In this document: positions 2,981-20,357 of the stretch, one piece after another
Layout of the letters: each line of letters starts with the position of its first letter
Numbering within the stretch: the first letter of the stretch is position 1
From: a virus
Length of the DNA stretch: 20,645 bases
Direction: 5' to 3' (one strand)
IMG/VR virus record: IMGVR_UViG_3300042691_021563
Coordinates: 1-20,645 of that record
Position numbers and translations under genes: made by a program
The notes under the pieces: model-generated
Database searches by the model: none
Told to the model about the DNA's origin: nothing
Seen by the model: only the letters and a program-made list of their open reading frames with translations

Positions 2981-3802
2981 TTAACAATCCCATGCTTTAC
3001 GCGACCAATAGTTGGCGCTTGTTTTATCAGTTAAATTACCTTGACCACCAGAGCGAGCGCAATATGAACGCTTTCTTCCTGGCTGGTCTTTCTTGATTGA
3101 CATATTTTTGTCACCAAAATTCACCTTCTGCGCCTTACCGTCACCATCTGGATCAACGAATACCTTTGACTTCTTAACGTCGCCCTTCATTGGCTTGTTA
3201 AGAGGAACCTTTTTGCCTTTATAAGTAGCCTCAAAAACAACCTTCTTTACTGCTTTCAGCAACGAAGATTGACCTGGAGTATCCTGAGCTAATATGTTTG
3301 TGTATGAAGTAGTGCCTTCAAATCTTGAGCTTGGGTCGTTTTTGTCTTTAGAAACCTTTTCGGCTCCAGTGTATTCCTCTGGTACGCAATTAGGAACCTT
3401 CTTGCCCTTCTTCATCTTCATGCCAATCTGCTTATAACCAGTCCAGCATGGATCAGCTTCTTCGTTCTGAGAGGCTTTTAGGGCTGCATCAGTGGGAGCG
3501 CCTTCCGATCCAGGCTTACGCATGCGTTCGCCAGAGCCAGCAGCAATACGCTTGCGCTTTGCGTGAATGTTGTCCCAAAGACCTCTTTTTTCTAGTAAAT
3601 CTGCGTCGAGTTCGGATGCGAAACCGCCAGCGATGAAAGAATTAACTCGGTCAAACCCAAACTGCTCAGGATTACCATTGAAGGACTCGTCCCACATGTT
3701 GTAACCACGGCGGTAAACTTCTTCTAAAATGCCTGTTGAATGACCTGAAATCTGAGATTTCTTATAGATTGCAAGCTTCTGCTTGTCGTTTAATTCTACC
3801 AT
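2981..3802 (-). CDS. Modular conserved phage protein (DUF5872-like and Cys-ended C-terminal modules)
   Basis: This 273-residue protein is built from short modules that recur in proteins of marine T4-like phages. An N-terminal helical segment (1-70) is followed by the KRGLWDNIHAKRKRI-AGSGERMRKPGS stretch at about 71-100, which resembles DUF5872. Then comes DPCWTGYKQIGMK...VPNCVP (about 117-141). A C-terminal module from about 195 runs VPLNKPM...NFGDKNMSIKKD...YWSRKAWDC, a pattern I know from many marine phage proteins of unknown function. It is very basic, and its Cys, Arg and Lys content suggests nucleic-acid contact or metal binding. The start has AAGGA eight bases upstream. The gene opens the block 3802-1 and lies behind a candidate late promoter. 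The biochemical role is unknown. Confidence 0.82.
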   Translation of the reverse strand: MVELNDKQKLAIYKKSQISGHSTGILEEVYRRGYNMWDESFNGNPEQFGFDRVNSFIAGGFASELDADLLEKRGLWDNIHAKRKRIAAGSGERMRKPGSEGAPTDAALKASQNEEADPCWTGYKQIGMKMKKGKKVPNCVPEEYTGAEKVSKDKNDPSSRFEGTTSYTNILAQDTPGQSSLLKAVKKVVFEATYKGKKVPLNKPMKGDVKKSKVFVDPDGDGKAQKVNFGDKNMSIKKDQPGRKRSYCARSGGQGNLTDKTSANYWSRKAWDC

Positions 3803-3885: not shown

Positions 3886-5976
3886 TTACTTTGATCTTCT
3901 TTTGCCTCTGTTGGCTAGAGGATCTCCGTTTTCATCAGAGTCCCAATAATTTAAAGAGTCTCTGCTGACAGATGAAGGGTTATATGCTTTGAACCCAATT
4001 ATCTTAGACAAACTGTTTTGATTGTCTGATAGCTGTTTGCCTAGAGATTTGTTAATTTCATTTGATGTTTTTTGGTTTGTGGCTAGATATTTTCCTGCTT
4101 CATCTTGAGTTGCAGCAGGATTACCAGTGTTGTAACCCAAACCACCAACACCAGATGTGGTGTTCTCGTTGATCTTTTTCTTTGATCTGGCTTTGATTGT
4201 CTGCATCAAACTCTGAGCATCCTCAGGAGTTGTTCTACTGTGAAGCATTTGGCGGAATCTTTCAACATGATCTGGATTATCGTGATCCAATGATCTAGCA
4301 GCTGCTCTGACGGCGCTACCAGAAGTTTCGCCTCTTGGATTCTCAACAACATTGTAGCTGGCATAGTTCATACGATAATCACCGCCCCTTCTTGAACCAT
4401 CGTCATTGATGGTCAATGGGAAACGAGAACCATTGTACTTGTCTAGTATGCCCTTGTAATTCTCAGAAGAACCACCAGCCGATGATTTGTTCTTAACTCC
4501 TGTTGAGCCAGAACCAGCGACCATAGTAAGGTGTAAGTTTTGGCCATCATCTTTGTGACGGTGCCACATCCATGCCAATGCTTTCGCTGGGTTTTTTGTG
4601 TGGCGGTGATCGCCAGCGATAAACGAGTCAGCTTTTTCTGGATAAACTTTTTTTAGTCTATCAATTTTCTCGCTGATAGTCAAAGGATCTTTATCAGTTG
4701 TTTCTTCTGGAGTAGATGGACCCATAACAAACACATAGTGCTGATGCGCTGGTTGTGAAAACAGATTGTTAAGTAATTTCTCATGCTCAACAGAGGGACC
4801 ATTAAATCTGCCTGCAGCTCCAGCAATGTGAAAATCCGGAGCAGCTTCCTTCAAGTTTGTTCTTGGAACTTTAGCTTCTTCAGGAACTTTCTTTGCTTGC
4901 TTGGCTCGTTCTTTAGCATAAAACTCATTTTGAATACCAGCGATTTCTCTTTCTTTTTGTGGAGTAAAGTGATCTGGGAACGCTCTTCTCATATGATCTA
5001 AAGTAGCGTTCTTAACAGCCATATCTTCTTCTTCACCAGTACCAATCATCTGACGATGCTGGTTGTCTACAAACTTATCAATAACTCTGCTTCTCTGCTC
5101 AGGGCTGAGATAGTTGTTCATATGCTTTAACAAACCATGGAAGGAACCAATATCATGAACATCCTGTCTAGTTGGTTTGCGATTGAACATGTTCTGGTAA
5201 ATAGTAGGAACGTCAGTTGTATATGTGCTTTCCTTTGGAGTTTTCTCTCTCATAATAGGCTTACCATCTTCAGTTCCGATCTGCTCATGACCTTCTCTCA
5301 TACCACGGTCAACAGAAAATCTGTGTGTTGGAATGAAACCCTCAGCATCGCCTTTCTTCGAACGGACAACGCCGAATCTACCATGAGCAGAAGTCATTGC
5401 GCTCAATAGTAACTTATGGAAAGCGCCTTTGACGCCGCTCTTGACATCACCCCAATCTGAACTGTGAGAAAACTGGTTCCATTCGCTTGGCTCGTTATTT
5501 TTATAAGTTGATGGTTCCATATCAAACTGCTGCACCTGACCATCATCATGTCTAGCCAAAGTCAATGTCTGAGAGCCAGCTCTTTTCTGACCAACAATAG
5601 TATACTTACCAAAACGTGAACCTGGAGAAAGCACCTTTGATAATGTATCAGCGTGCTGTTCCGGAACCATAATGTCAGCATCGCCAACTTTTGGTTTGTG
5701 TTGTACAAACTCTTCGTCTTTGATTTTTGGATCCATAAAAGCTCTTGTTGAACCAGCATATACGCTACCGCTGTTGATAGCTTCGCCCTTCGGTCCAAAC
5801 AAGTGCTCACCTGTTTCAGCCATGTGCGCATTGTTTATGTGGTGTAGGAAATCGTGTATGTCTTGCTGACGCTCTGCTCTGTTATGCTTCTTATCAAGCA
5901 ACATTGGTTCAGCAGCAACATCGCCAAGCTTTAGATTACCGCCTTCTGTGATGAATGATCTGAAGTTTACAACCAT
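3886..5976 (-). CDS. Two-domain nucleotidyltransferase: Pol-beta-like plus NMNAT/cytidylyltransferase-like, with capsid-targeting N-terminus
   Basis: This is a 696-residue protein. Residues 1-11 (MVVNFRSFITE, then Gly) match the capsid-targeting and protease-cleavage pattern shared with three neighbours. Residues 60-160 carry a Pol-beta nucleotidyltransferase signature: AGST (74-77), GDADI with D99 and D101, and a third acidic strand QFDME (D152). Residues 383-560 look like the HxGH nucleotidyltransferase fold: GRFNGPSVEH (389-398, with the usual T-x-G-H altered to S-V-E-H) and SGSAVR (552-557), equivalent to the ISGTxxR motif of NMNAT-type enzymes. The C-terminal 100 residues are Asn/Ser/Gly-rich and probably flexible. 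The substrate is unknown; NAD synthesis, tRNA or RNA end modification are all possible. It is last in the block starting at 9765 and its ATG overlaps the previous stop (TAATG). Domain calls are from motifs only. Confidence 0.75.
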   Translation of the reverse strand: MVVNFRSFITEGGNLKLGDVAAEPMLLDKKHNRAERQQDIHDFLHHINNAHMAETGEHLFGPKGEAINSGSVYAGSTRAFMDPKIKDEEFVQHKPKVGDADIMVPEQHADTLSKVLSPGSRFGKYTIVGQKRAGSQTLTLARHDDGQVQQFDMEPSTYKNNEPSEWNQFSHSSDWGDVKSGVKGAFHKLLLSAMTSAHGRFGVVRSKKGDAEGFIPTHRFSVDRGMREGHEQIGTEDGKPIMREKTPKESTYTTDVPTIYQNMFNRKPTRQDVHDIGSFHGLLKHMNNYLSPEQRSRVIDKFVDNQHRQMIGTGEEEDMAVKNATLDHMRRAFPDHFTPQKEREIAGIQNEFYAKERAKQAKKVPEEAKVPRTNLKEAAPDFHIAGAAGRFNGPSVEHEKLLNNLFSQPAHQHYVFVMGPSTPEETTDKDPLTISEKIDRLKKVYPEKADSFIAGDHRHTKNPAKALAWMWHRHKDDGQNLHLTMVAGSGSTGVKNKSSAGGSSENYKGILDKYNGSRFPLTINDDGSRRGGDYRMNYASYNVVENPRGETSGSAVRAAARSLDHDNPDHVERFRQMLHSRTTPEDAQSLMQTIKARSKKKINENTTSGVGGLGYNTGNPAATQDEAGKYLATNQKTSNEINKSLGKQLSDNQNSLSKIIGFKAYNPSSVSRDSLNYWDSDENGDPLANRGKRRSK

Positions 5977-6851
5977 TATTTCTTTCCGATGCTTCTTAGT
6001 ATTGCTTGTGCTGCCTTGAACTTTTGGAAGGTTGGAGAAGTAACCTTAACTCTCTGAGCCTCTGGGTCATCAGGATGGAACACATGCCCTTCAGTTTCAT
6101 TACCCCACTTAGGTTCAAGGTTGTCAGTATGCGCTCTTATTCTCTTTTCGACCTCAGAATTGATGTCAGCAACTTTCTGCTGCTCAATAGCTTTCTGTTC
6201 TGAATGCTCTTTCTTTCTTGATCCGAGTATCTCAGGGTTGATAGTGTCAAGCTTTTCTTTCAAGTCTTTTGCTGGTACAGACACTTTACCATTTTCAACA
6301 ACGTCGTGATCGAAGTTCAAATGTTCGTTACCGAGTGTTTTGAAATGCTCGGGATCATGTATTTCGTTGCCATCCATCTGCGAGTGCATAATGAAAGAAC
6401 CTGACTTACCCATCTTGTTTGGATCGTATGATGTACCGACAAACTTAACGCCACCATCTTCAGCAGGTGTAGCAAATGGCTTGTAGAATATTTCACCCTT
6501 AACACTTGCTTCCTTACCGCTTTCTTCGCGCTTTTGTTTCAAGTAGTTCTTTAGGTTTTTGTTGCCATCAAACAAACGAAACATATTGTCATAGTGTCTT
6601 GACATTGTTGGGTCAAGATCATCGCCGTACTTTTCTCTGGCTCCTTTTTCAAACCCACCAGCTTCTCTTACCTTTGGTGAACGAGAAGATCTAACATAGA
6701 AACCTTCATCATCATGACCAACTTCCATACCAGCACCATCAGTTTTTTCTGTAACATGTCCAGAAATCAAACCATGTTGTAGCATTTTCTGAAGATGATC
6801 GTATCTCAGATCTTTAGGATGAGCTATGCCTTTTCTTAAAATATCAGCCAT
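5976..6851 (-). CDS. RNA/DNA ligase-like covalent nucleotidyltransferase
   Basis: The 291 residues show ligase-superfamily motifs in the expected order. Motif I is EKTDGAGMEV with candidate adenylated lysine K36. An aromatic stretch FRLFD follows at 91-95, then VKGEIFY (E120), EGHVF at 254-258 (motif IV), and RVKVTSP at about 267-273 with K269 (motif V). Enzymes of this superfamily (ATP-dependent DNA ligases, T4 Rnl1/Rnl2) transfer AMP to lysine and then to a 5' end. The protein is short and has no obvious OB or other C-terminal domain. Unlike its four neighbours it lacks the F-x-x-F-[IL]-x-E N-terminus. The ATG has GAGGA upstream and overlaps the preceding stop (TAATG). Its position beside a HAD phosphatase and a nucleotidyltransferase suggests end healing and sealing, but the substrate is unproven. 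Confidence 0.7.
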   Translation of the reverse strand: MADILRKGIAHPKDLRYDHLQKMLQHGLISGHVTEKTDGAGMEVGHDDEGFYVRSSRSPKVREAGGFEKGAREKYGDDLDPTMSRHYDNMFRLFDGNKNLKNYLKQKREESGKEASVKGEIFYKPFATPAEDGGVKFVGTSYDPNKMGKSGSFIMHSQMDGNEIHDPEHFKTLGNEHLNFDHDVVENGKVSVPAKDLKEKLDTINPEILGSRKKEHSEQKAIEQQKVADINSEVEKRIRAHTDNLEPKWGNETEGHVFHPDDPEAQRVKVTSPTFQKFKAAQAILRSIGKK

Positions 6852-7894
6852 TAGTTCCTCTGAAGCTTTGCGAAATTACCTTGCTTGTCGTGTATCAATG
6901 CGCCTCTTGGTTCAATAGGCTCGCCGTTCTCATCATGGTGAGTAAACGGTTCGTTTTTATGCATAACACCAGCTAATATATTTTTACCGTTCTTCATTAG
7001 CCCATGTAACATAAACGCATGATCAAAATGCTTTCTGTTACTTATTACTTGTGAAGCAAGGTTGCCATGGTTCTTTTCGCCTTTGATATGCTCAAGATAC
7101 GAATCAGTGTGAGCTGTAAGACCTTGGCTTGACATATCATTTATGTGCTTCAATATCTTTTGATTGTGACCTTCCATACCATCAAACATTTCTGGCTTTG
7201 ACTTGGCATAAGTTATTTCCATTTGCTTTCTGTTGTTTAGGTATGCTTGCTGTTCGTCGGGCGTGTAGTTACCTGGAACGTGCTTCAAGGTTGGATCAAT
7301 CTGATGCACATCAGGATGCTGTTTGAACTTGGCTCTATCGTTACCAAGAGGCATAAAATCTCTGCCATTGTGCTTTGCTTCAACGACAACAGCCATCTTG
7401 GCATTTTTCAATGACTGGCCATGTGCGCTGTCAGCAGGTACAGAATAAGATCTACCAATACCATTTAAAACAACTCTGCCCTTCTTTGATGAAATCTGTT
7501 CGCCTGTGAACATCTTACCATCATAAGTTCCGTTACTGTCTGGCGCAATCTTAGCTAGATGCTCGTGGGCAGCCTTCAACTTAGTTGCCAGTTGCGGATT
7601 GCTGGCATAGTTCTTGTCTATCTCTTCTTTCGAGTAGTTTTTAATTGAAGGGTCTGAAGAAACATGAAACCCTTTCTTATCTCTACCGAAAGTAACTGGG
7701 TGGCTGTCATACTTTGTCATAGCAGTCACATCAGATTTTTTACCACGGAATAGATCGTGTAATCCATCAAGGAAGTTGGCTGCTTTGCCTACGTTTTCGT
7801 GACCATCACCATCATGGAAAACGTGGTCTTCGATGTGTGGGATTTTGTTTTTTGTTTGAGTTTCCTCTACAAGAAACGATTTAAAATTAATCAA
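6851..7894 (-). CDS. DUF6267-like protein with degenerate ligase-type motifs and capsid-targeting N-terminus; TTG start
   Basis: This 347-residue protein resembles a family of marine T4-like phage proteins that I know from memory as DUF6267. Features include MTKYDSHPVTFGRDKKGFHVSS (K61, a motif-I-like position with Ser for the usual Gly), a long helical stretch with KNYSKEEIDKNY, TYDGKMFTG at about 123-131, and a C-terminal RGALIHDKQGN...KL that resembles motifs IV and V. It may therefore be a diverged relative of the ligase-like protein encoded next to it, and the loss of Gly could mean an inactive or altered site. The first codon is TTG at 7892-7894, with GGGAGG five bases upstream. It yields MINFKSFLVE, the same N-terminal pattern as its neighbours, which supports this start. 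It overlaps the previous gene by 8 nt. Confidence 0.75.
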   Translation of the reverse strand: MINFKSFLVEETQTKNKIPHIEDHVFHDGDGHENVGKAANFLDGLHDLFRGKKSDVTAMTKYDSHPVTFGRDKKGFHVSSDPSIKNYSKEEIDKNYASNPQLATKLKAAHEHLAKIAPDSNGTYDGKMFTGEQISSKKGRVVLNGIGRSYSVPADSAHGQSLKNAKMAVVVEAKHNGRDFMPLGNDRAKFKQHPDVHQIDPTLKHVPGNYTPDEQQAYLNNRKQMEITYAKSKPEMFDGMEGHNQKILKHINDMSSQGLTAHTDSYLEHIKGEKNHGNLASQVISNRKHFDHAFMLHGLMKNGKNILAGVMHKNEPFTHHDENGEPIEPRGALIHDKQGNFAKLQRN

Positions 7895-9107
7895 ATTGAC
7901 CTCCCATCATAACATTATGGCTTCTTGCTGTTGGTACAGCAGCTTGTTGTTTTTGTGGTGCTGCCTCAACTGGTGGAGGCGTTTCTATATTTTTAGTAGA
8001 AACTTGTAAAGATCTAGCTTTTCTTGGTTTTGTTGGCTTTGACTCACCAGTATCTTGACGAATCTTTCTTTCTTGTCTTGCTTGTATAGCTTGATCAATA
8101 CCACCATTGATACTGGTTGAGCTAGGAGCGTTTAATGCGTGTTGAATAGTTATTCTTCCACCAGTTCCAGCCTGAGAATGACCTGTGCTTTTATGTAACA
8201 TAATTTTAGCATCAGTCACATCAGATGTATCATCGTTTCTGTTTACATGCAAGGCATTTGTATGTAGAGTGTGAATACCATCGTCGCCTTTTCTTAACTC
8301 TACTGTATTTCCACCGTAAATCGCATTTACATTATTTTCACCATGTTCACCACCATGATCCTTACCATACATGGCTCGCATTATAATTTTTCTGTCTTCA
8401 GGATCGTTTTTGTCCAACGAATAGTGATAAATCGAACCAGCAGGTAAAGTTCCTTCGTCAGGAGACAGTTTTGATTTTAGTTCCTGAAACTGAGAGATAA
8501 CATTTTTCATCTTTTGGTGATCGAAAACGTCAGTATATCCACCCCACTGTTGATAAGTATCGCCTTTTAATGACATATAGTGAACAGGATTTCCTTGTGC
8601 GTCATGTAGAAATGCGTCAGCTTTTTTCTTGCCGCCAACAGCTTTAATACCAGCTACCTCATGCACTTTACCATCTGCTGTTTTGATTCTTACAGGATTT
8701 CCACCATTTTCCTGCATCGCCTTATCAATCTGCGACTTGATAGAATTTATTTGTGCTGTTTCAGTTTTTAGTGTATCGCTTGTTCTCTTCATCAAGAGTT
8801 TTGGTTTATGGAAATGACTCATCGGTATTGCTTGGTTCCCAACAATACCATGATATCTCATTTTACCAGCAGCGTCTTTAAGTAAAGCAATTCTATCAAG
8901 CTTTAACTCTGAGTCTTTTTTAAAGTCAGGATGTAAATCGCTTCTATCTCTAGCTAAAACATATCTACCGCTAATCTTATTGAAAGTTCCTTCAGGGTGA
9001 CTGTCATCAAAATATTGTAATCTGTGTCTTTCAGTTTCTGATTCTTTGGCTCCACCCATTAAGTCTTTGATAGTGGCTTCAATTAAAAAAGTATTAAAGT
9101 TAATCAT
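7887..9107 (-). CDS. Conserved phage protein, possible PD-(D/E)XK-like nuclease, with capsid-targeting N-terminus
   Basis: I place the start at the ATG at 9105-9107, giving 406 residues beginning MINFNTFLIE before Ala. An in-frame upstream ATG (9134) would add nine residues, but the shared N-terminal pattern argues against it. AGGAA lies about 10 bases upstream. In the middle, KKADAFLHDAQGNPVHYMSLKG (D164, then S179-L-K181), followed by QQWGGYTD, resembles the D...[EQS]-x-K core of PD-(D/E)XK nucleases in which SLK replaces ExK. Similar ADF...ISHK...QQWGG stretches occur in other marine phage proteins I recall. No nuclease activity is proven. The last 60 residues are a Pro/Gln/Lys-rich tail. 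The gene overlaps both neighbours by 8 nt. Confidence 0.72.
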   Translation of the reverse strand: MINFNTFLIEATIKDLMGGAKESETERHRLQYFDDSHPEGTFNKISGRYVLARDRSDLHPDFKKDSELKLDRIALLKDAAGKMRYHGIVGNQAIPMSHFHKPKLLMKRTSDTLKTETAQINSIKSQIDKAMQENGGNPVRIKTADGKVHEVAGIKAVGGKKKADAFLHDAQGNPVHYMSLKGDTYQQWGGYTDVFDHQKMKNVISQFQELKSKLSPDEGTLPAGSIYHYSLDKNDPEDRKIIMRAMYGKDHGGEHGENNVNAIYGGNTVELRKGDDGIHTLHTNALHVNRNDDTSDVTDAKIMLHKSTGHSQAGTGGRITIQHALNAPSSTSINGGIDQAIQARQERKIRQDTGESKPTKPRKARSLQVSTKNIETPPPVEAAPQKQQAAVPTARSHNVMMGGQFD

Positions 9108-9765
9108 TATTAGGTTTTTCCTTTTCAGGCACATAGGAATGCTTTGTCAGTTTGACGTTGCCAGTCTCAGGATCATGCTGAACATGATGACCATGGAACT
9201 CAACGTCAGGGTGAGCTTTGCTTAGTTTCAACATACCTTTGATATTATCCAAAGAGTCGTCGTATAAGTGAACTTTCTTGTATCCGTTTTGTCTAATCAG
9301 AGCGCTGAGAACCATAGCCTTAGATTCAGATGGCTTTGTATCTGTAATATTACCAGCTCTGCGAACGTGTATATCCTTGTCGATGTCAATGCCATACTTT
9401 CTCATGTAACGAGCAAACTTAGGTTGGTCGTCAAGATCAGCTCTGGCTGTTAACATTTCGACGTTTTTGTTATTTCTATGAATCGCTTTCAACTTAGCGA
9501 TCATCTTATGAATAGGCTTGGCTGACTGTCTGAATATGTCTGAGCTTCTGAACTCGCTGAAATCATAGCGATGTCCAGGTTCAAGCTTATGGTTGTTAAA
9601 TTCTTGGTTGGTTAGGGATCTAACTCTGTTACCAGCTGCATCATTGACATGAACTCTCAGCTTATTGTGATCATGAGCGAACAGAGTTTCGTCGATGTCA
9701 AACGCATGCAGCGTATTTGAGTCTGGGTCTTTCTTTTCAGTGATAAATTGGCTGAAACGGAGCAT
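9100..9765 (-). CDS. HAD-superfamily phosphatase with capsid-targeting N-terminus
   Basis: This 221-residue protein shows all four HAD motifs. Motif I is HAFDIDETLF with nucleophile D23 and acid/base D25. Motif II is EMLTAR (T106). The lysine is probably K149 in SESKAM. Motif IV is HLYDDSLDN (D169, D170). The layout resembles polynucleotide 3'-phosphatase domains such as that of T4 PseT, but there is no kinase domain, and a small-molecule phosphatase is equally possible. Residues 1-10, MLRFSQFITE, match the N-terminal pattern of three downstream genes. AGGA lies eight bases before the ATG. It is the first gene of a five-gene overlapping block preceded by a late-type promoter and a terminator. 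Confidence 0.85.
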   Translation of the reverse strand: MLRFSQFITEKKDPDSNTLHAFDIDETLFAHDHNKLRVHVNDAAGNRVRSLTNQEFNNHKLEPGHRYDFSEFRSSDIFRQSAKPIHKMIAKLKAIHRNNKNVEMLTARADLDDQPKFARYMRKYGIDIDKDIHVRRAGNITDTKPSESKAMVLSALIRQNGYKKVHLYDDSLDNIKGMLKLSKAHPDVEFHGHHVQHDPETGNVKLTKHSYVPEKEKPNND

Positions 9766-9968: not shown

Positions 9969-10160
9969 TTAAGCCTTTACTTCAACTGGTCTCATAAAGA
10001 AAGTTGGAGTCCAACCATCAAATCCACCGCCGAGGTTAAGGTGACGCATGAACTTCTTGGCTTCCTTCTGGTCAAGAAAGGTCTTGATGGTCTGGTCGGT
10101 AGTAACCTCGTAGACACAGTGTACGCCGTTGTTCTCTATAAGCTTGTAGTTAAACGCCAT
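9969..10160 (-). CDS. Small conserved phage protein of unknown function
   Basis: This 63-residue protein starts MAFNYKLIENN. The start at 10158-10160 has GGAG eight bases upstream and overlaps the end of the previous gene by 11 nt. A longer frame from 10232 would lie deep inside that gene and is unlikely. The sequence looks like a small alpha/beta fold, with a central DQKEAKKFMRHLNLGGG segment and a C-terminal FDGWTPTFF. I do not recognise a family and assign no function. It is the last gene before the terminator at 9807-9836. Confidence 0.72.
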   Translation of the reverse strand: MAFNYKLIENNGVHCVYEVTTDQTIKTFLDQKEAKKFMRHLNLGGGFDGWTPTFFMRPVEVKA

Positions 10161-10563
10161 TGTTAATCTCCAAATAAGGTTTCCAAGTTTCAGCAAAAGA
10201 ACAGTTCTTAGCACCCTTGAACATAGGGGCAATTTGAGAGTCTGAGTAACCAGCTAGTCCGCAACCAACTCTAGTAACGAAAAAGCTGTATTGAGGGAAA
10301 TACCAAGTAAAGTAAACAAACAACGTCACATGCTTTTGTATCTCCAACAATTCTAAAGTTTCTACATGCTTATCCTTGGTTGGAATAGCAAAAGCTCTAC
10401 CCATCAAACCAAATCCAGCACCGAATGGAGCGCCAAAATGGTCTCGAGCAATCTTAGCAGCACCAGCACCATGTATTCCTGCAAGGTTAGAACCAAACAC
10501 GAATATATCATTCATGTTATCAGGAACAGTTCCATCTTTATGATACCGATTTGAACTTGTCAA
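10150..10563 (-). CDS. Macro-domain-like protein (putative ADP-ribose binding); likely TTG start
   Basis: The core (IFVFGSNLAGIHGAGAAKIA, then GRAFAIPTKD, FFVTRVGCGLAGYSD and a C-terminal W) is a known phage and bacterial protein type resembling macro domains, which bind or hydrolyse ADP-ribose derivatives. I assign this by pattern, not by a full motif match. I prefer a TTG start at 10561-10563 (137 aa) because AAGGAG lies eight bases upstream and two other genes here use TTG with strong ribosome binding sites. Alternatives are an ATG at 10515 (121 aa, starting just before the core) and an ATG at 10602 (150 aa, no ribosome binding site). With the TTG start it overlaps the previous gene by 26 nt. 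ADP-ribose or NAD-related counter-defence is possible but unproven. Confidence 0.68.
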   Translation of the reverse strand: MTSSNRYHKDGTVPDNMNDIFVFGSNLAGIHGAGAAKIARDHFGAPFGAGFGLMGRAFAIPTKDKHVETLELLEIQKHVTLFVYFTWYFPQYSFFVTRVGCGLAGYSDSQIAPMFKGAKNCSFAETWKPYLEINNGV

Positions 10564-10954
10564 TGAAAACTCTCCTTGTTTCTGCATTACGAAGTACGCC
10601 ATCAATCATATTGCTGGCAATGTCTTTGGCCAACTCGTCTCGAACCTTGATCATCACCTCAACGTCCGTTGGTCTTTTCCAGTTAGGAATGTCAACGTAC
10701 AGTCGGTTCTTCTTACCGTTCATACGATATGTGACGCAATAAGTCGTCTTGTCGTTCAACCCGTCGATTTCAGACTGAATGTTGCACTCAAACTCAGTGT
10801 TGTTTACGGTGATCGAGTCAACAATTTTTTGCTTAGCTTCCGACTCCATTTCCTTCAAAAGGCGAACGGACTCGTCAGTAGGCGCTCTCTTTTCAGTCAC
10901 ATATGATTCTGAACGAACGTTGTGATTATGAAAGTGAAATTGCGATCTAGCCAT
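10538..10954 (-). CDS. Conserved hypothetical phage protein
   Basis: This 138-residue protein begins MARSQFHFHNHNVRSESY, a His/Ser/Arg-rich opening. It continues with a helical acidic segment (ESVRLLKEMESEAKQK), a beta-rich middle (TTYCVTYRMNGKKNRLYVDIP) and a basic helical C-terminus. I recall similar proteins encoded near the helicase in marine T4-like phages but know no function. The ATG overlaps the helicase stop by one base (TAATG), which indicates translational coupling with the helicase. Its 3' end overlaps the next gene. Confidence 0.75.
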   Translation of the reverse strand: MARSQFHFHNHNVRSESYVTEKRAPTDESVRLLKEMESEAKQKIVDSITVNNTEFECNIQSEIDGLNDKTTYCVTYRMNGKKNRLYVDIPNWKRPTDVEVMIKVRDELAKDIASNMIDGVLRNAETRRVFIDKFKSVS

Positions 10955-12357
10955 TACTTAAACCCCTCAAATTTAGACTTGTCAAACTTCGGCTTCTTTC
11001 GATTACGTTCATAATCCTGCTGTCCAAATTCAGTATTATCCATCACAGGTCCGTCAAGTAAATCTTCTTGGGCTGACTGTTCTACATCATAGAGACGCAT
11101 TTTGCTACGATCAATCCCAATGACAAACCTACGATTATACCCAGGATCAGAGTATCTATTCTTAAGCTGCTTAACCATAATTTGACCCAGCTCTTGAAGT
11201 TCCTCGGTGGAGATGAGCGCAAACATAAAATCAGCTGTGGCTGGGAGTCCGAAGGATTCTGATGTATCTTCCAGTCCCACGTCGCTGCTCGAATATCCGC
11301 TTCGAGTCGTTTGAGTCGCACTGACGATAGGAACATTGTGTTCCACTGCCAGCCCTCGGAGCTCTTCTGCGATTGCTTTGACAAGGGTATAAGAATTGAC
11401 GTTGGCTCCATTTTTGATCCTCGATGACATACAGATGTTCAGATAGTCGATGTAGATAATGTCAGGAACAAAGTTCTTCTTGATCTTTAGTTCGTTGATC
11501 AAATGGCGGAAGTTTGCTGAACCTGCACAGGCAGTCGGATATTCCTTGATGACCAACTTTCCCTTGACATTGTTCTTCAATCGCTCCATCTTCCTGTCAT
11601 ATGATTCCTTTGGAAGAACTCTTAGGTCATCCATTGTAACATCAAGAAGGTTGGCTACGATACGTTCGGCTATTCTCTCTTCTGCCATTTCAAGAGTGAT
11701 GTAGAGAACGTTTTGTCCAGCAACCATGTTGGTAGCAGCACAATGACACATAAACAAAGATTTACCAACACCAGTACCAGCCAGAGCGACATTTAACGTT
11801 TTCCTTGATAGACCACCTTGTGTAATTTTATTGAAATATTCCAGATCGAAAGGAATCTTGACCTCACGAGTATGAAGATACTCATACAGTTCGGCAGCAT
11901 CATCAATGAAGTCATGACCAATGTGTGTGTCAAACGAAACACCAAGCGCATCCTGAAGTATCTGAGGAATAGCACCTTTGCTCAGCTTACCAGTCTTATC
12001 GTCGATGATACCGATAGACTGCATAATCGCGTTATAAACTGCTTTCTCCTGACAGAAGTTTTCAGTTTTATCAAGCAACCAATCTATCTGAGTGTTATTG
12101 TCAATCTCAAGAGACTGCAAGATTTCCTTGCAGCCCTTGAATGTTTCGTCGTTGATTCCATCCTTGTTGGTCAGATCAATAGCCAACGCTTCTTTAGATG
12201 GGAAAAGATTGTACTTTTTTACATAATCGTCGATAAGCTGAAATACAATCTTATGGCTGTAATCCGAAAAATATTCTTCCTTTAGAAAAGGTATGACCTT
12301 TCTGCCGTACTCTTCATTGAATACGAGATTGCTAAAGATAATTTGTTCGAATGCCAT
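10954..12357 (-). CDS. 41: Replicative DNA helicase (T4 gp41/DnaB family)
   Basis: This 467-residue RecA-fold hexameric helicase unwinds DNA 5' to 3' ahead of the phage polymerase and recruits primase. An N-terminal helical domain (1-140) is followed by the ATPase core. Walker A is ALAGTGVGKSLF (191-202), the H1a glutamate lies in YITLEM (219-224), Walker B is DIIYIDYLN (299-307), and the H3 motif is SATQTTRSG (346-354). SRIKNGANVNSY at 312-323 and DRSKMR at 416-421 fit DnaB-family nucleic-acid and arginine-finger regions. The length matches T4 gp41 (about 475). The C-terminus is Lys-rich. Its ATG directly follows the uvsX stop (TAAATG), so the two genes are co-transcribed. Confidence 0.95.
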   Translation of the reverse strand: MAFEQIIFSNLVFNEEYGRKVIPFLKEEYFSDYSHKIVFQLIDDYVKKYNLFPSKEALAIDLTNKDGINDETFKGCKEILQSLEIDNNTQIDWLLDKTENFCQEKAVYNAIMQSIGIIDDKTGKLSKGAIPQILQDALGVSFDTHIGHDFIDDAAELYEYLHTREVKIPFDLEYFNKITQGGLSRKTLNVALAGTGVGKSLFMCHCAATNMVAGQNVLYITLEMAEERIAERIVANLLDVTMDDLRVLPKESYDRKMERLKNNVKGKLVIKEYPTACAGSANFRHLINELKIKKNFVPDIIYIDYLNICMSSRIKNGANVNSYTLVKAIAEELRGLAVEHNVPIVSATQTTRSGYSSSDVGLEDTSESFGLPATADFMFALISTEELQELGQIMVKQLKNRYSDPGYNRRFVIGIDRSKMRLYDVEQSAQEDLLDGPVMDNTEFGQQDYERNRKKPKFDKSKFEGFK

Positions 12358-13416
12358 TTACACCCCTTCATCGTTATCGGTCTCTTCATCTTCTAAGATT
12401 GTTCCCAAACCAATCTTATACCTCTTTTCAATATATTCAGCAAAGTCTGTTTCCTTAAACATCTTTGTCCAGAATTCCTTGTTATCAACAATATCACCAG
12501 CACGCATGTTTGGTTCTTTCAGCTCACCAGTTTCTCTGTCAACAACTGCGTACCAACCGTTCTTTGGCTTGGCCAGATAGTTACCTTCAAGAGCAACATC
12601 GAACAAACCTGACCAACGATTGATGCCACCTTCAAAGTTGACAGTAATCGGGATCTTGGACTTTTCCTTAACGTAACGGCTCTTCTCAATGTTGATGACA
12701 AAATGGTAGCCACTGATACCATCAGCATCCTTTTCCTGCTGACGACCGAGGATCCAGATATTGTCCGAACCATAGTAGGAACCTGTACCACCACCAACGA
12801 TGTCCTTGGGATACAGACCAATTTCCTTGTAGGTGTGATTGACAACAACCATCGGAACATCTTTCAACGAAAGATGCGGTGTGATCATTCGGAACAGAGA
12901 CTTAAGCTGCTTGGCTCTTGACATATCAGCAACAGCCTTTTGATCAAGTGCATCTTCAACTTCCTTCTTGGAAGCAAGATTACCAATCGAGTCAATCACA
13001 ATCATAACATGATCATCGCGAGTCAGTTCCTTCAACTGCTTCATGATGTCAAACTTCAATTCCTCAATGTCTGTGATAGGTGTATGGACCACAGAGTCAA
13101 AAGGAATCTTAAACGTCTTAAAATAATTTTGAGGAGTACCAAACTCTGAGTCATAGAAGAGAATAATGCCATCCTTGTACTTCTTGAGGAAGGCAGAGGC
13201 GAGTAACAAAGCAAATCCAGTTTTGAAGTGCTTTGACGGACCAGCCAACATTGTTAGTCCTGGAGTAATACCACCATCGACCGTGCCTGACAGGGCAACA
13301 TTAATCATCGGTACTGTGGTTGGAATCATATCCTTTTTAGTAAATACTTTGCTTTTATCCAAAGTATCAGTTAGTTCGATAGTGCTGTTCTTGAGTAATT
13401 TATCTCTTAATGACAT
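12358..13416 (-). CDS. uvsX: UvsX RecA-like recombinase
   Basis: This 352-residue protein catalyses strand exchange in recombination-dependent replication and repair, forming filaments on single-stranded DNA. Walker A is GPSKHFKT (59-66), the UvsX type with Phe before Lys. The acidic ATP-activating residues lie in FYDSEFGTP (87-95). Walker B is VMIVIDSIGN (137-146) with D142. VVVNHTYKEIG and GGGTGSYYGSDNIW correspond to the RecA glutamine-switch and L2-like region. The C-terminus is strongly acidic (ILEDEETDNDEG), as in UvsX and RecA. GGAG lies seven bases before the ATG. It has its own sigma70-like promoter at 13443-13471. The T4 homologue is about 390 residues, so this one is slightly short. 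Confidence 0.95.
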   Translation of the reverse strand: MSLRDKLLKNSTIELTDTLDKSKVFTKKDMIPTTVPMINVALSGTVDGGITPGLTMLAGPSKHFKTGFALLLASAFLKKYKDGIILFYDSEFGTPQNYFKTFKIPFDSVVHTPITDIEELKFDIMKQLKELTRDDHVMIVIDSIGNLASKKEVEDALDQKAVADMSRAKQLKSLFRMITPHLSLKDVPMVVVNHTYKEIGLYPKDIVGGGTGSYYGSDNIWILGRQQEKDADGISGYHFVINIEKSRYVKEKSKIPITVNFEGGINRWSGLFDVALEGNYLAKPKNGWYAVVDRETGELKEPNMRAGDIVDNKEFWTKMFKETDFAEYIEKRYKIGLGTILEDEETDNDEGV

Positions 13417-13442
13417 GTGTATCTCCGTATAATTGTATGTTT

Positions 13443-13471
13443 AGTATAAGTGTATAGCAGTATAAAGTCAA
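13443..13471 (-). promoter_or_regulatory. Sigma70-like promoter for uvsX
   Basis: On the minus strand TTGACT (13471-13466) is separated by exactly 17 bases from TATACT (13448-13443). This predicts a start near 13436 and a leader of about 20 nt. The -35 box overlaps the TGA stop of the upstream gene. Confidence 0.7.
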
Positions 13472-13830
13472 CTCTTTATATAGTCATCCATTTTTTGGAT
13501 AAATTCTTTAATTTTCTTATCTCTATTTGGCCAAAGAATAGTATCCTTTTCGGGGTTCTTCATGAGGTTCTTCAAAAGAGGCATAATCATTTCACGCAGC
13601 CCTTCCAACTTAGTTTCCGCTGCAATGGCTCTATCTTCATTTGATATTATTTTTGTTTGTGCTTCTTTAGAATCGGTAAAAGTAAACCCGAAATCGTCAT
13701 CTTCATTTAGTTTCATTTTCTTAACCTTTACAGTTTCTCTTAAAGGAGGATGTACATAGTGCTGACATCCAGGAGGGCACTCGCGTTCCAATCCACAAGG
13801 ACACCCTCCGCCATAATCATACTTAGCCAT
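13468..13830 (-). CDS. Conserved phage protein with Cys-rich N-terminus and helical C-terminus
   Basis: This is a 120-residue protein. Residues 1-25 hold four cysteines and a histidine (GGGCPCGLERECPPGCQHYVH), a likely small metal-binding knuckle. Residues 45-120 include an acidic segment and a helical domain (KLEGLREMIMPLLKNLMKNPEKDTILWPNRDKKI) that I recall from other marine T4-like phages, always unassigned. The ATG overlaps the end of the previous gene by 8 nt and has only a weak GAG ribosome site, so translation is probably coupled. The stop codon forms part of the uvsX -35 box. The function is unknown; adjacency to uvsX suggests a replication or recombination accessory. Confidence 0.8.
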   Translation of the reverse strand: MAKYDYGGGCPCGLERECPPGCQHYVHPPLRETVKVKKMKLNEDDDFGFTFTDSKEAQTKIISNEDRAIAAETKLEGLREMIMPLLKNLMKNPEKDTILWPNRDKKIKEFIQKMDDYIKS

Positions 13831-14101
13831 CGACTATCTCGACTTTTATGTCTGTGATGTAAAACATTGGTTGTCCAATCCAAGGTTTCCAATCTTCCAT
13901 TTCAACGACAATATCAGAACCATAGATAATTTGGTGATGATTTACATGTTTGATGCTGGAGTTTTTCTGTATCTGATCAAGAAACTGTTCAATCGGTACG
14001 CCTTCTCTAGGAGATTGTACGCGTAAACTTTCTTTACCCATGCCATACAATTCATCAGGACGAAAGTTATAACTAGTCGAGTATTCATATCTAATCTTCA
14101 T
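13823..14101 (-). CDS. Small hypothetical protein coupled to the polymerase gene
   Basis: I start this 92-residue protein at the ATG at 14099-14101 (MKIRYEYSTSYNF). It overlaps the polymerase stop as ATGA and has GGAGG nine bases upstream inside the polymerase gene. A longer frame to 14143 lies wholly inside the polymerase and is unlikely. The protein looks beta-rich, with aromatic and acidic residues (IIYGSDIVVEMEDWKPWIG) and no motif I recognise. Tight coupling suggests co-expression with the polymerase. Confidence 0.7.
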   Translation of the reverse strand: MKIRYEYSTSYNFRPDELYGMGKESLRVQSPREGVPIEQFLDQIQKNSSIKHVNHHQIIYGSDIVVEMEDWKPWIGQPMFYITDIKVEIVDG

Positions 14102-16575
14102 GAGAAGAAATCCTCCAATGTTGCTCTGTGTTCTACTTCCCAACCAATCACACTTGTAATTGATTTAACAGGCTCAAGGAACGACTTGTTGAACTGTAGC
14201 TCACGATCAATATACTTATCTAGTCCCAATTCATCGGGCATTTCATCAGGTGTTGCGATGACAGTGTCATTGATTGGATTGGGAACCTTGAGATAAGCAA
14301 ACCTAATCTTATCACCATTCTGAATAGGAGGAATATGGTTAATGTTCTTTTCCTTTAGTAAGTGATTGAACAGCAACGCACCTTTCACATGGATAGGAGT
14401 TCCTTTTACATAAATCGTAGCGGCATCAGCATATCCTTTCGGATCAGCGTCAAGACCCTTAACGCCTCTCGGAAAAGCAACATCCTCGAAAGGCAGAGTC
14501 ATGAACTTAGCTTTGAACTCCTCGATAAACTGAATTAATTCATTTTGATCGCTGTTCATAATTATACCGAACGCTTTCTTAATGTTTTCGCGACAAGCAT
14601 GCGGAGTTGAAGAACGAACCGCCTCGATACCAGACAACTTCAGCTTGGGCTTATCATACTGCACGCCTTCAACGTTCCAAGCATTGAGAATGTACATCTT
14701 CTTACCACGCCAGATACCCTTGTTGGCAATAGTTTCACGCTTCATCTTCATCTTTTGCTGATATGCATTCATCATATCAGCGAGTTCCTGATAACACTTA
14801 TCCATGTAAGGCTGGATTTTATGTTCACAGAACGCATCAATCGCACCAATGATAACATGATCATCATCAATGTTCATAACTTCCTGAACCTTTTCCATTG
14901 TGATGTAAATAGAATCTGTATCAGAAGCGATCACATAATCAACATCCTTAGTTGAGAATGTTTTGTTCATGAACTGATTCATCTTCTTCTCGATCCAACG
15001 AATAGAAAGCTGACCAGACATGGTGATAGCTTCAGCGTGATTGTGATTGAACCAACGGAAATACTGATTACCCAAAGCACCATAAGCAGAGTTTAGCTGA
15101 ATCTTTTTAGCCAACTGCATATTATGGTAACGCGCAACCAACTTAGCATCTTCGTTTGATTTAGTTTCTTCATAACGCTTCTTTGCTTCGAGCATGAGCT
15201 TCTTGTATTCTGCTCGACTGTTATACATCTTCTCCATTAGAGCAGGAAGGAATCCTTGATGTTCCTTGTCATACATACAACCGTTGGCAGCATAAGCAAA
15301 ATCATACAATGCTTTGAACTTTCCCTCAAGCAAAGTGTCGATATTTGGCATACCCGTTGCCTTACCTTTAAAGGTTTCAGGGCTGATATTGTACTGCATA
15401 ATCAGGTGTGGATACAGTGAGTTCAAGTCAAACGACACAACCCACTTACTCAAGCCAATCTTTGGCTCCTTGACGAAACCACCAACCAACGCATCATAAT
15501 CAGGCTGCTTCTTGAACTGAGGAATAACGATGTTCTGTTCGAGAAGATAGTTGTGGATGATAGTATCCCATGAACGCACAGTTGTCATGGTATCAGAATA
15601 GTTTACCTTCGCGTCATAAGCAAGAGCCATAACCTGCTCGAGGAACTTCAGCTTATCGTCAAGCTTCTCGACCAGTACAACGTCTTGAATGTTATACTCA
15701 ATAAACTTTTGATAATCTTTCTTATACAATTCAAGCAGATTACCATACTCTGAGTAGTCAACCTTCTTCTCGCCGAGTTCAATCTGAGCAATGTAATCCA
15801 GCTTATATGACTCTTGGTTGCCGAACATGAACTTACGATACAGCTGATAATAGTCCAGAACTGTTACGCCAACAGGTTCATAGCTCTGGTTCTCTTTACC
15901 TTTGAACTCGACCATTCGCTCATTCAAAATACCCCAAGGCGAAAGCTTCTTCGCTTCAGGCAAACCAAGCAGATTTTTGATACGATTGACCAAGTATGGC
16001 ATATCGAAGAACTCGACGTTCCAACCTGTTATAACATCCATGTCTAGATGCTGCCAAGCAAGCAAAAACTTAGCAAGCAAGTCATGTTCGTTCTTACATC
16101 TCAGGTAACTTGTGCTGGGATCATTGCTGATGAAATGCCCGCAGCCAAACACATAATTTGTGCCTTGGAACCGCAGGGTGATAGCAGTGATTTCTTTATC
16201 TGCTTTCTGAATGTCAGGGAAACCTTCGTCGGCTGCGACCTCGATGTCGATGTTACCGATACGAACTGTTTTTGGGTCGTAGTTAATTTCGCCCTTGAAC
16301 GCATCAAAGATATACAGGTAGGTAAATGCGTTTAAGCCATAAATCTCCATGTTGGAGACATCGCTGTACCTTTCAATAAAATCTTTAGCATCAGAGATGC
16401 TGTCGAACTGCATCTTCTCAACAGCCTTGCCGTCAAGAGTTCTGTACTTACCGCCTTGTTTTTGAATGAACATATAAGGATGGTAGTTTTCGATCAGTTT
16501 CTGGCGCTTACCATTCTTAAACCCACGAACGTAGATCTTATCGCCTCTCTGAAAAACACTTGTATAAAAATCCAA
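14098..16575 (-). CDS. 43: Family B DNA polymerase (T4 gp43 type) with 3'-5' exonuclease; TTG start
   Basis: This 825-residue replicative polymerase has a complete proofreading domain: Exo I IGNIDIEVA (D110, E112), Exo II GWNVEFFDMPY (184-194) and Exo III YNIQDVV (294-300, D298). The palm motifs are also complete: A SFDLNSLYPHL (381-391, D383), B KKIQLNSAYGALGNQ (490-504) and C ASDTDSIYI (550-558, D552 and D554). The C-terminal tail RATLEDFFS resembles the sliding-clamp-binding peptide of gp43-type enzymes. The start codon is TTG (16573-16575), with GGAGG six bases upstream. The encoded MDFYTSVFQRGDKIYVRG matches the usual N-terminus of marine T4-like polymerases, and no in-frame ATG or GTG precedes it with a ribosome site. 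A promoter-like element lies at 16599-16627. Confidence 0.96.
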   Translation of the reverse strand: MDFYTSVFQRGDKIYVRGFKNGKRQKLIENYHPYMFIQKQGGKYRTLDGKAVEKMQFDSISDAKDFIERYSDVSNMEIYGLNAFTYLYIFDAFKGEINYDPKTVRIGNIDIEVAADEGFPDIQKADKEITAITLRFQGTNYVFGCGHFISNDPSTSYLRCKNEHDLLAKFLLAWQHLDMDVITGWNVEFFDMPYLVNRIKNLLGLPEAKKLSPWGILNERMVEFKGKENQSYEPVGVTVLDYYQLYRKFMFGNQESYKLDYIAQIELGEKKVDYSEYGNLLELYKKDYQKFIEYNIQDVVLVEKLDDKLKFLEQVMALAYDAKVNYSDTMTTVRSWDTIIHNYLLEQNIVIPQFKKQPDYDALVGGFVKEPKIGLSKWVVSFDLNSLYPHLIMQYNISPETFKGKATGMPNIDTLLEGKFKALYDFAYAANGCMYDKEHQGFLPALMEKMYNSRAEYKKLMLEAKKRYEETKSNEDAKLVARYHNMQLAKKIQLNSAYGALGNQYFRWFNHNHAEAITMSGQLSIRWIEKKMNQFMNKTFSTKDVDYVIASDTDSIYITMEKVQEVMNIDDDHVIIGAIDAFCEHKIQPYMDKCYQELADMMNAYQQKMKMKRETIANKGIWRGKKMYILNAWNVEGVQYDKPKLKLSGIEAVRSSTPHACRENIKKAFGIIMNSDQNELIQFIEEFKAKFMTLPFEDVAFPRGVKGLDADPKGYADAATIYVKGTPIHVKGALLFNHLLKEKNINHIPPIQNGDKIRFAYLKVPNPINDTVIATPDEMPDELGLDKYIDRELQFNKSFLEPVKSITSVIGWEVEHRATLEDFFS

Positions 16576-16650: not shown

Positions 16651-17613
16651 TTATTGTAAACTAATCAAACCTTTTTCGGTCAAGTAACCTTCTTCACCGA
16701 TTGCTTCTTCGCTTTTGTATGCTTCCATAAACTCTTTCAAGTTTGGTATAACATCAAAGTGTTCATTTTTAAAGTAAACAAACAATGGACGAGAGATAGG
16801 ATATTCACCTGCCTTGATTGCATCATACTCAGGAGCAACACCATCAACAGTTGCACCCTTTACGATGTTAAGGCTTTCTTCCAAAAATGAGAAACCGAAA
16901 ATACCAAGAGCATTTGGGTTGTTTTGTAGCTTCTGAATGATCAACGTATCATTCTCACCAGCTTCAATGAATGCACCATCTTCACGCATAGACTTACAGA
17001 TAGACTTTTCTTCATCCTCTGTAACAGTCATGTTGTTGGTCTTGATAGCTTCCTTACATGCCTTTTCCATTACCAATTCAACGAACGAGTCTCTGGTTCC
17101 AGAGGTAGGAGGTGGGCCAAGCACTTCGATCTTACCATCAGGCAACGCAGGATTTACGTCCTTCCATGTTTTGTATGGATTCTCAACAACTTCACCATCA
17201 ATAATTACAAACTTAGCAAGCGCACGATAGATATCGTCCTTAGTCAAGTTCATATCTTCATGTTCCTTTGCCATAGCAAGAACAATAGCATCATAACCAA
17301 TCTTGACTTCTGTTGCAGTTACACCATTTGTCTTACACATCTCAACTTCGCTATCCTTCATTGGACGAGAAGCATTGACAGCATCAGGTGTATCTTCGCC
17401 AGCACCAGCACAGAACAACTTGATACCACCACCTGTACCAGTAGATTCGACAACAGGCGTTGGTGCTCCAGTTGTCTTACCAAAAACTTCTGCTACTGTA
17501 GTTGTAAATGGATATACAGTTGACGAACCTACGATGCGAATTTGATCTCGTAGGGCGAATGCTGGTGTGACAGCTAAACTGAGTGCAACAGCAGCAAGTA
17601 AAAGTTTCTTCAT
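16651..17613 (-). CDS. pstS: PstS phosphate-binding protein (periplasmic)
   Basis: This 320-residue substrate-binding protein delivers phosphate to the PstCAB ABC transporter in the host inner membrane. The start at 17611-17613 has GGAG seven bases upstream; an ATG four codons earlier has no ribosome site. Residues 1-20 are a typical Sec signal peptide ending AFA. Phosphate-binding loops are visible: IVGSSTVYPF (27-36), ASRPM (81-85) and TSGTRDSF (170-177). The TGTGGGIKLFC stretch is also typical of PstS. Three later cysteines could form a disulfide. The gene is full length. No transporter permease or ATPase is present here, so it must serve the host system, as known for pstS carried by marine cyanophages. 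Expression must pass a terminator-like hairpin at 17626-17659. Confidence 0.95.
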   Translation of the reverse strand: MKKLLLAAVALSLAVTPAFALRDQIRIVGSSTVYPFTTTVAEVFGKTTGAPTPVVESTGTGGGIKLFCAGAGEDTPDAVNASRPMKDSEVEMCKTNGVTATEVKIGYDAIVLAMAKEHEDMNLTKDDIYRALAKFVIIDGEVVENPYKTWKDVNPALPDGKIEVLGPPPTSGTRDSFVELVMEKACKEAIKTNNMTVTEDEEKSICKSMREDGAFIEAGENDTLIIQKLQNNPNALGIFGFSFLEESLNIVKGATVDGVAPEYDAIKAGEYPISRPLFVYFKNEHFDVIPNLKEFMEAYKSEEAIGEEGYLTEKGLISLQ

Positions 17614-17625
17614 ACATTTCTCCAT

Positions 17626-17878: not shown

Positions 17879-18361
17879 TTATACCTTTTTTGCTGGGACG
17901 CTACTGTCTACGATGTCAATCTTCTTTGGCTTCTTATCCTCAGGGATAATGTTCTCAAGCCAAATCTTCAACATACCGTTGATCAACTCGGCGTTCTTAA
18001 CTTCAACAGTGTCCGCAACAGAAAACTTACGAGTAAATGATCTGTCAGCAATTCCCTTGTAAATGTAAGTAACAGGGTTTGTGGGATCTAGCTGATCCAG
18101 ATTCAAACCACCCTTGATTGTCAGGGTGCTATTTGCGAGTTCGATGTCAATGTTCTGCTTGCCGAAACCAGCGACTGCCATTTCGAGCGCATACTTATTG
18201 TCGTCTACCTTAATGATGTTGTATGGAGGATATCCAGGAATGCCCTTAGTCATGTCTTCGTGAGCTTTAGCAAAAGTTTGGAGTAACTTGTCTGCTCCAA
18301 TAAAGTTCTTGCTGAAATTAGCACCTGGGAAACCGTTAAAAGAAAATACATCGTTAGTCAT
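17879..18361 (-). CDS. hsp20: Small heat-shock protein, Hsp20/IbpA type
   Basis: This 160-residue protein is a full-length alpha-crystallin-domain chaperone that holds unfolding proteins in soluble complexes. The N-terminal arm (1-43) is Phe-rich. PPYNIIKVDDNKYALEMAVAGF (45-66) opens the crystallin domain, and YKGIADRSFTRKFSVADTVEV (101-121) is the IbpA-type loop and core. NGMLKIWLENIIPE (128-141) closes it, and KKIDIVD (146-152) holds the C-terminal I-x-I anchoring motif. AGGAG lies seven bases before the ATG. Hsp20 genes are widespread in T4-like cyanophages. It starts a transcription unit with an operator-like palindrome in its promoter and is followed after two bases by the DUF1127 gene. 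Confidence 0.95.
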   Translation of the reverse strand: MTNDVFSFNGFPGANFSKNFIGADKLLQTFAKAHEDMTKGIPGYPPYNIIKVDDNKYALEMAVAGFGKQNIDIELANSTLTIKGGLNLDQLDPTNPVTYIYKGIADRSFTRKFSVADTVEVKNAELINGMLKIWLENIIPEDKKPKKIDIVDSSVPAKKV

Positions 18362-20135: not shown

Positions 20136-20357
20136 TTATACCTCATCTACTACAAAGGCTGAACCATCGTCCAACACAGTTGTTTTAATTCCTTTTATGT
20201 GATCATGCATTGCCATCATTGCATTGGCAAACCATCCAACCATAAAACTTTCGTCGCGAAAAGCATCACGATCCATATCTTTTGTATGTTCTACAAAAAA
20301 TTTTGCCCAAGCCATAGCATCAGGATTACTATGTATGCTCATATCATAATCACTCAT
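20136..20357 (-). CDS. Small conserved phage protein
   Basis: This 73-residue protein, MSDYDMSIHSNPDAMAWAKFF..., has a helical core GWFANAMMAMHDHIKG seen in comparable proteins next to the gene above in other T4-like phages. The ATG overlaps the previous stop as ATGA and its stop abuts the next ATG, so the three genes are translationally coupled. The function is unknown. Confidence 0.8.
   Translation of the reverse strand: MSDYDMSIHSNPDAMAWAKFFVEHTKDMDRDAFRDESFMVGWFANAMMAMHDHIKGIKTTVLDDGSAFVVDEV

Follow-up and report, generated by a model that had tools for sequence, protein, structure and literature searches.

The closest described system is that of the T4 internal proteins. The first ten residues of T4 IPIII are sufficient for packaging, mutants assign residues 4 and 7 to capsid targeting and residues 8 and 10 to processing, and the gp21 protease cleaves after L/I-x-E (PMC9026906). 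Black's review proposes this capsid-targeting sequence as a general protein-loading route of T4-like phages (PMC9026906). Here we describe a comparable leader in IMG/VR record IMGVR_UViG_3300042691_021563, a stretch of viral DNA of 20,645 nucleotides with 29 open reading frames (ORFs), the whole of which we call the window. The stretch covers part of the genome of an aquatic, T4-like phage and carries the genes for gp41 helicase, UvsX and gp43 DNA polymerase, all on the minus strand (10954-16575); downstream of these, from 9765 to 3886 on the same strand, lie five enzyme-like genes. Four of their products share a ten-residue opening which we take, with a probability of roughly 0.88, to be a portable capsid-targeting sequence like that of the T4 internal proteins, such that the enzymes would be packaged, processed and delivered with the DNA. 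The phage probably packages and delivers all four, because their leader matches the T4 tag and most cyanophage proteins bearing such a leader have been found in particles.

The shared leader and its frequency

The four leaders (minus strand; slashes mark predicted cuts) are MLRFSQFITE/K (9736-9765) on a HAD-superfamily phosphatase (9100-9765), MINFNTFLIE/A (9078-9107) on a nuclease-like protein (7887-9107), MINFKSFLVE/E (7865-7894) on a DUF6267-type, ligase-like protein (6851-7894) whose TTG start has GGAGG upstream, and MVVNFRSFITE/G (5944-5976), followed directly by an invariant Gly-Gly-Asn (GGN), on a pol-beta-type nucleotidyltransferase with a C-terminal cytidylyltransferase-like domain (3886-5976). 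The initial annotation had claimed that four otherwise unrelated enzymes open alike and that the opening resembles that of T4 internal proteins. All four starts are real, the fifth gene (5976-6851) lacks the opening, and nothing in the sequences of the mature parts is similar enough to account for the common start. The likeness to T4 also holds residue by residue: the four conserved positions (aromatic 4, aromatic 7, Ile/Leu 8 and Glu 10) are those that serve targeting and processing in IPIII (PMC9026906). The aromatics are F4 and F7 in three of the four leaders and F5 and F8 in the nucleotidyltransferase, and the triplets at residues 8-10 read ITE, LIE, LVE and, shifted by one in the nucleotidyltransferase, ITE. 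Among 16 HAD homologues F4 is invariant and E10 nearly so, with a linker of variable length behind them. In AlphaFold models of the DUF6267-type protein and the nucleotidyltransferase, confidence is low for the leader and high for the body.

We defined a strict motif as the pattern [FYW]xx[FYW][ILVMF]xE beginning at residue 3-5; at internal positions the pattern occurs at a rate of 1-4 per 10,000. For the 29 ORFs of the window 0.01 N-terminal matches are expected, and four are found at natural starts; a fifth (20136-20357) requires an internal start. The comparison of N-termini across relatives also shows the motif enriched above chance. A search with the HAD protein yielded 24 IMG/VR contigs, whose 329 ORFs include 35 with the motif (0.17 expected); in nearly every one of these the first aromatic stands exactly at residue 4. 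Where N-termini were chosen solely for aromatics at 4 and 7 (108 of them), Glu occupies position 10 in 58% and Ile or Leu position 8 in 69%; the corresponding figures for internal control sites are 6% and 17%. Chance similarity is rejected by these counts. In T4 itself, only ipII and ipIII match the strict motif in 49 kb, and a second 49-kb stretch gave no match.

A scan of IMG/VR for one variant of the leader, MKTFKxF..E, returned at least 128 matches; among those listed, 119 have a stop no more than 30 codons upstream. Once the leader was trimmed off, 103 listed proteins fell into at least 58 clusters without detectable similarity. Pfam names among the matches listed include SAM lyase, DUF6267, ADP-ribosyltransferases, zeta-toxin-like kinase, adenylate kinase, HD hydrolase, glucosaminidase, double-psi beta-barrel and cytidylyltransferase domains. 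The leader is thus portable, sitting on unrelated proteins and being present or absent among orthologues of the same protein.

Predicted cut-site junctions, head genes and virion proteomes

The nucleotidyltransferase family shows such presence and absence. A first search with a single sequence found nothing, and a profile search recovered 80 IMG/VR loci. Of the proteins that bear GGN close to their start, once redundancy was removed, 40 carry a leader and five begin Met-Gly-Gly-Asn. All 36 distinct leaders place Glu immediately before GGN, although they are otherwise variable and range from 6 to 39 residues in length; the P3 residue is Leu in 23, Ile in 11, and Val and Met in one each (L/I in 34/36), with P2 free. 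As read from these alignments, the junction has the specificity of gp21, with [LI]xE before the predicted mature N-terminus. It persists in fusions with upstream domains (SLLNE/GGN, QIIME/GGN, TINE/GGN and KLME/GGN), one fusion (L199) having Met instead. The DUF6267 family behaves similarly, reading ..QYLNE/SKNTHLEHLED with a leader and M/AKNTHLEHLED without one. Two further DUF6267 copies (L064:10797 and L080:8395) begin MFSFKGFVTK, in which F4 and F7 are kept and Lys replaces the cleavage Glu at position 10; these are possible natural variants that would be targeted but left uncut. The HAD phosphatase is found fused behind other domains at L003:6387-8744 and L022:5333-7822. The L003 fusion keeps an internal HAD leader, MFNFREFITE, which suggests release by proteolysis.

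The machinery that would act on these leaders is encoded by large relatives. Custom profiles identified a gp21-type protease and a gp23-type capsid protein in 7 of 16 relative-bearing contigs; a scan of 12 contigs with Pfam Peptidase_S77 and Gp23 gave no match and was uninformative, its control being equally silent. The gp23 propeptide ends in LTE or LNE in the three closest relatives, and in FLTE, FLAE, LLTE or ILTE in T4 and cyanophages. A 150-kb relative (G013) has both protease and gp23, and two strict motif starts among its 222 ORFs, on the ligase-like protein (MKSFKSFITE) and the HAD protein (MKSFSEYIIE); these flank the nucleotidyltransferase (MITFKNFILKE/GGN) in one compact cluster after gp41.

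We compared motif and virion content in the whole genomes of four cyanophages whose virions have been analysed by mass spectrometry in published work, S-CREM2, S-SM1, S-SCSM1 and S-SZBM1. Seven of nine motif proteins were detected in virions (P=1.9e-4, convolved hypergeometrics), or four of five with one vote per family (P about 0.01); phage by phage, the counts are 4/4, 1/1, 1/2 and 1/2. S-CREM2 has 219 genes, of which 52 were detected in virions, and its strict-motif proteins are exactly four, every one virion-detected (PMC10665884): the SAM hydrolase gp6 (MKDFDSFLEE), the APH kinase gp14 (VKRFDAFLTE), gp136 (MQTFSMFFSE) and the cytidylyltransferase gp154 (MKNFSSFLTE). Two near-matches were also virion-detected, gp13 (MKDLHSFLTE) and the Cas9-like nuclease gp12 (L039:7704-10313), which has PLRFASFMAE/A some 17 residues in. 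The sole motif protein of S-SM1 is the cytidylyltransferase SSM1_190 (MKKFSAFLNE), whose cluster T4-GC190 was reported in virions (PMC3037559). The NMNAT ORF91 of S-SCSM1 (MKSFLQFLKE) was detected (PMC9602691), as was cytidylyltransferase 140 of S-SZBM1 (MRFRQFIIE), and the leaderless DUF6267 protein 141 next to the latter is not in the mass spectrometry table (PMC9146016). Like the window cluster, the detected cytidylyltransferase of S-SM1, S-SCSM1 and S-SZBM1 is encoded downstream of gp43-uvsX-gp41. A concern attached to the initial annotation, that the same opening might sit on many proteins foreign to the head, was not borne out: the four whole genomes hold nine annotated carriers, the seven detected ones included, and the motif is absent from the replication proteins of the scanned genomes.

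Proposed packaging and delivery, and competing explanations

The following sequence of events would accommodate these observations. Newly made HAD, nuclease-like, DUF6267/ligase-like and nucleotidyltransferase proteins would attach to the scaffold core of the prohead by the aromatics at 4 and 7 and be enclosed while the head assembles. A gp21-type prohead protease would then cut after [IL]xE, in the nucleotidyltransferase exactly before Gly-Gly-Asn, and so free the mature enzymes inside the head, where they would stay beside the packaged DNA until both pass into the host. The cargo would probably act on nucleic-acid ends or nucleotides during the first minutes of infection. Of the fate proposed in the initial annotation, head packaging and processing are supported by the agreement with cyanophage virions and by the [LI]xE junctions; for the window proteins themselves we infer cleavage, location inside the head, ejection into the host and enzymatic roles. 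The nucleotidyltransferase may in addition be a head-activated proenzyme, dormant in the cell that makes it and ready to act in the virion, a tentative idea drawn from the alignments. Since GGN is as invariant as the catalytic residues, and relatives that lack a leader begin M-GGN, cleavage at E/GGN would yield the active N-terminus nowhere but in the capsid. A Met that precedes Gly is normally removed.

Several observations weigh against packaging and delivery. The window fragment bears no head genes, and one of its four leaders, that of the nucleotidyltransferase, is one residue longer than T4's. The virion evidence comes by analogy from related phages rather than from the window phage, and the detected families overlap those of the window through the cytidylyltransferase-like domain only. 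Mass spectrometric detection is also compatible with co-purification. Two motif proteins were not found in particles: S-SCSM1 ORF30 (SSCSM1_30, MKTFKQFMSE) is not marked as detected (PMC9602691), and the similar S-SZBM1 191 (SSZBM1_191) is absent from the table (PMC9146016). These two, the only motif exceptions, form one small family of about 105 residues (..SESVNISGDFNGNLY..; L034:44215-44535 and L163:42311-42628).

The leader might target the prohead with no useful ejection, the proteins acting there in scaffolding or in DNA or metabolite handling, or riding as unprocessed passengers. T4 IPIII does work in head assembly (PMC9026906), the window cluster adjoins structural-type genes, and the HAD copy in L022 is fused to a virion-type protein. 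We nevertheless consider this unlikely, as the mature parts keep the catalytic motifs of enzymes, and in T4 both IPI and Alt pass into the host. A quite improbable alternative is that the opening is another kind of signal (tail or baseplate docking, replication-compartment sorting or an N-degron) or merely a favourable start, the virion detections being contamination by abundant proteins; the authors of the cyanophage studies themselves allow for carry-over or co-purification. Such a signal would sit poorly with a motif that is specific to virion-detected proteins and absent from replication proteins, closes with the gp21 cut signature where the mature protein would begin, and is conserved at the positions of the T4 mutants. 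Least credible of all is a functionless opening, left by common ancestry or by recent recombinational duplication of 5′ ends. Recombination at gene starts could indeed spread such modules, but positions 4, 7, 8 and 10 are kept while non-contact residues differ, at least 58 unrelated bodies carry one leader variant, and common ancestry of the leader-bearing proteins is rejected given their unrelated mature parts. We favour a capsid-targeting sequence that leads to packaging and delivery.

Cargo, gene neighbourhood and relation to known systems

The labels given to the cargo in the initial annotation fared unevenly. The HAD phosphatase has complete catalytic motifs (FDIDETLF ... TAR ... YDDS) and resembles the polynucleotide kinase/phosphatase PHROG 415, to which it is weakly matched (phrog_415, E=2.4e-8), with Acid_phosphat_B below cut-off. 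The double nucleotidyltransferase is likewise upheld, with GS..DxD..D in its N-terminal domain and a cytidylyltransferase-like C-terminal domain (phrog_395); G75, S76, D99, D101 and D152 are invariant in 23 homologues. Its N-terminal domain is modelled confidently, with weak matches to TENT5/TUTase folds, and its C-terminal domain poorly; the family profile found no match in Pfam or PDB sequences. No search supported the name of the nuclease-like protein (phrog_13937), which came only from a D..SLK-like stretch; the label is unproven because similarity to SSM1_188 or SSCSM1_90 was not found. The DUF6267-type protein belongs to a KxDG family (KYDS in the window copy), and its model (predicted local distance difference test score 88, residues 1-15 disordered) gave weak Foldseek ligase matches (template-modelling scores 0.2-0.27). 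The leaderless RNA-ligase-like protein (5976-6851, minus strand, start MADILRKGIAH) has motifs EKTDG, EGxVxxHP and RxKVTS and a best Pfam match, RNA_ligase, below cut-off (E=9.6e-4). Its orthologues in L012 and G013 bear the leader MKSFKSFITE. The idea that the window protein begins exactly at the cut site was dropped, since its start lies about 3 residues upstream, within the former leader. Searches of named phages with the HAD and ligase-like proteins (tblastn) gave no match. A role of the cargo in nucleic-acid end repair is a guess from the enzyme classes.

Several neighbouring genes, all on the minus strand, may be recorded. Just downstream of the cargo cluster is a leaderless ferritin-like Dps gene (2520-2993), in a position kept in L002, L006, L012, L016, L078 and G013. 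The composite protein at 2981-3802 has a C-terminal domain (KKVPLNKPMKGDVKKSKVFVDPDGDG) that is a separate small protein with the leader MLSFLEFITE in L016 and L023; the window copy reads a degenerate KAVKKVVFE/A there. At 427-2520 and 3-425 are Pro/Ala- or Ser/Thr-rich proteins whose starts end in L-x-E (MEKKIGLEHAIRKVLAE/S; STLIESFLKLSE/R); they are possibly further head-core proteins, with starts resembling those of T4 gp67 and gp22. The protein at 10150-10605 contains IFVFGSNLAGIHGAGAAKIARDHFG and looks by eye like macro/ADP-ribose-binding proteins. PstS-like (phosphate-binding) and Hsp20-like genes, also read by eye, lie upstream of gp43 (16651-17625 and 17879-18361), as in marine cyanophages.

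Little is known of the proteins that T4-like phages of oceans and lakes inject, and virion studies of cyanophages were unable to separate packaged enzymes from contaminants. If the leader predicts virion presence, candidate injected enzymes can be listed from sequence and the injected proteomes of T4-like phages become readable. For the window phage it suggests a kit for processing nucleic-acid ends, made up of phosphatase, ligase-like proteins and nucleotidyltransferase; elsewhere the candidates are SAM lyase, kinases, ADP-ribosyltransferases, zeta-toxin-like kinases and cell-wall enzymes. The capsid-targeting sequence is already known from T4; what is added here is the cargo, the phage group, the agreement with virions and the junction evidence. 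The leader on these enzymes and that agreement appear to be unreported in the open-access literature searched, in which none of the 15 papers using the phrase capsid targeting sequence concerns cyanophages by title or abstract.

The window leaders share with those of T4 IPII and IPIII (MKTYQEFIAE, with a variant in IPI) their length, start position, aromatics at 4 and 7, Ile/Leu at 8 and Glu at 10, and in both cases the leader precedes unrelated mature proteins. They differ in preferring Phe at 4 without a fixed MKT, and their cargo consists of larger enzymes in one operon-like cluster, whereas the T4 internal proteins are small. With T4 Alt (MELITELFDE), a packaged and injected ADP-ribosyltransferase, the window has in common an enzyme carried, as predicted, in the head; Alt is of another enzyme class, and the window leader is of the internal-protein type. 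More distant relatives of the nucleotidyltransferase have Alt-like ..ELF.. leaders ending in [LI]xE, so that both known T4 leader types occur in this one family. The cytidylyltransferase/NMNAT, SAM hydrolase and APH kinase of cyanophages carry the same motif leader and are virion-detected. The accessible text of the cyanophage papers discusses encapsidation or carry-over without mention of a targeting sequence, and does not report the HAD, nuclease-like and ligase-like cargo of the window cluster. Polyvalent proteins and MuF-fused head effectors (PMC5512222, PMC9503650) are likewise enzymes presumed to be packaged and injected, and several relatives of the window nucleotidyltransferase lie within proteins of more than 1000 residues. 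In those systems packaging was deduced from fusion to, or neighbourhood with, head genes, whereas in the window it is a short, predictedly cleavable leader that marks the cargo.

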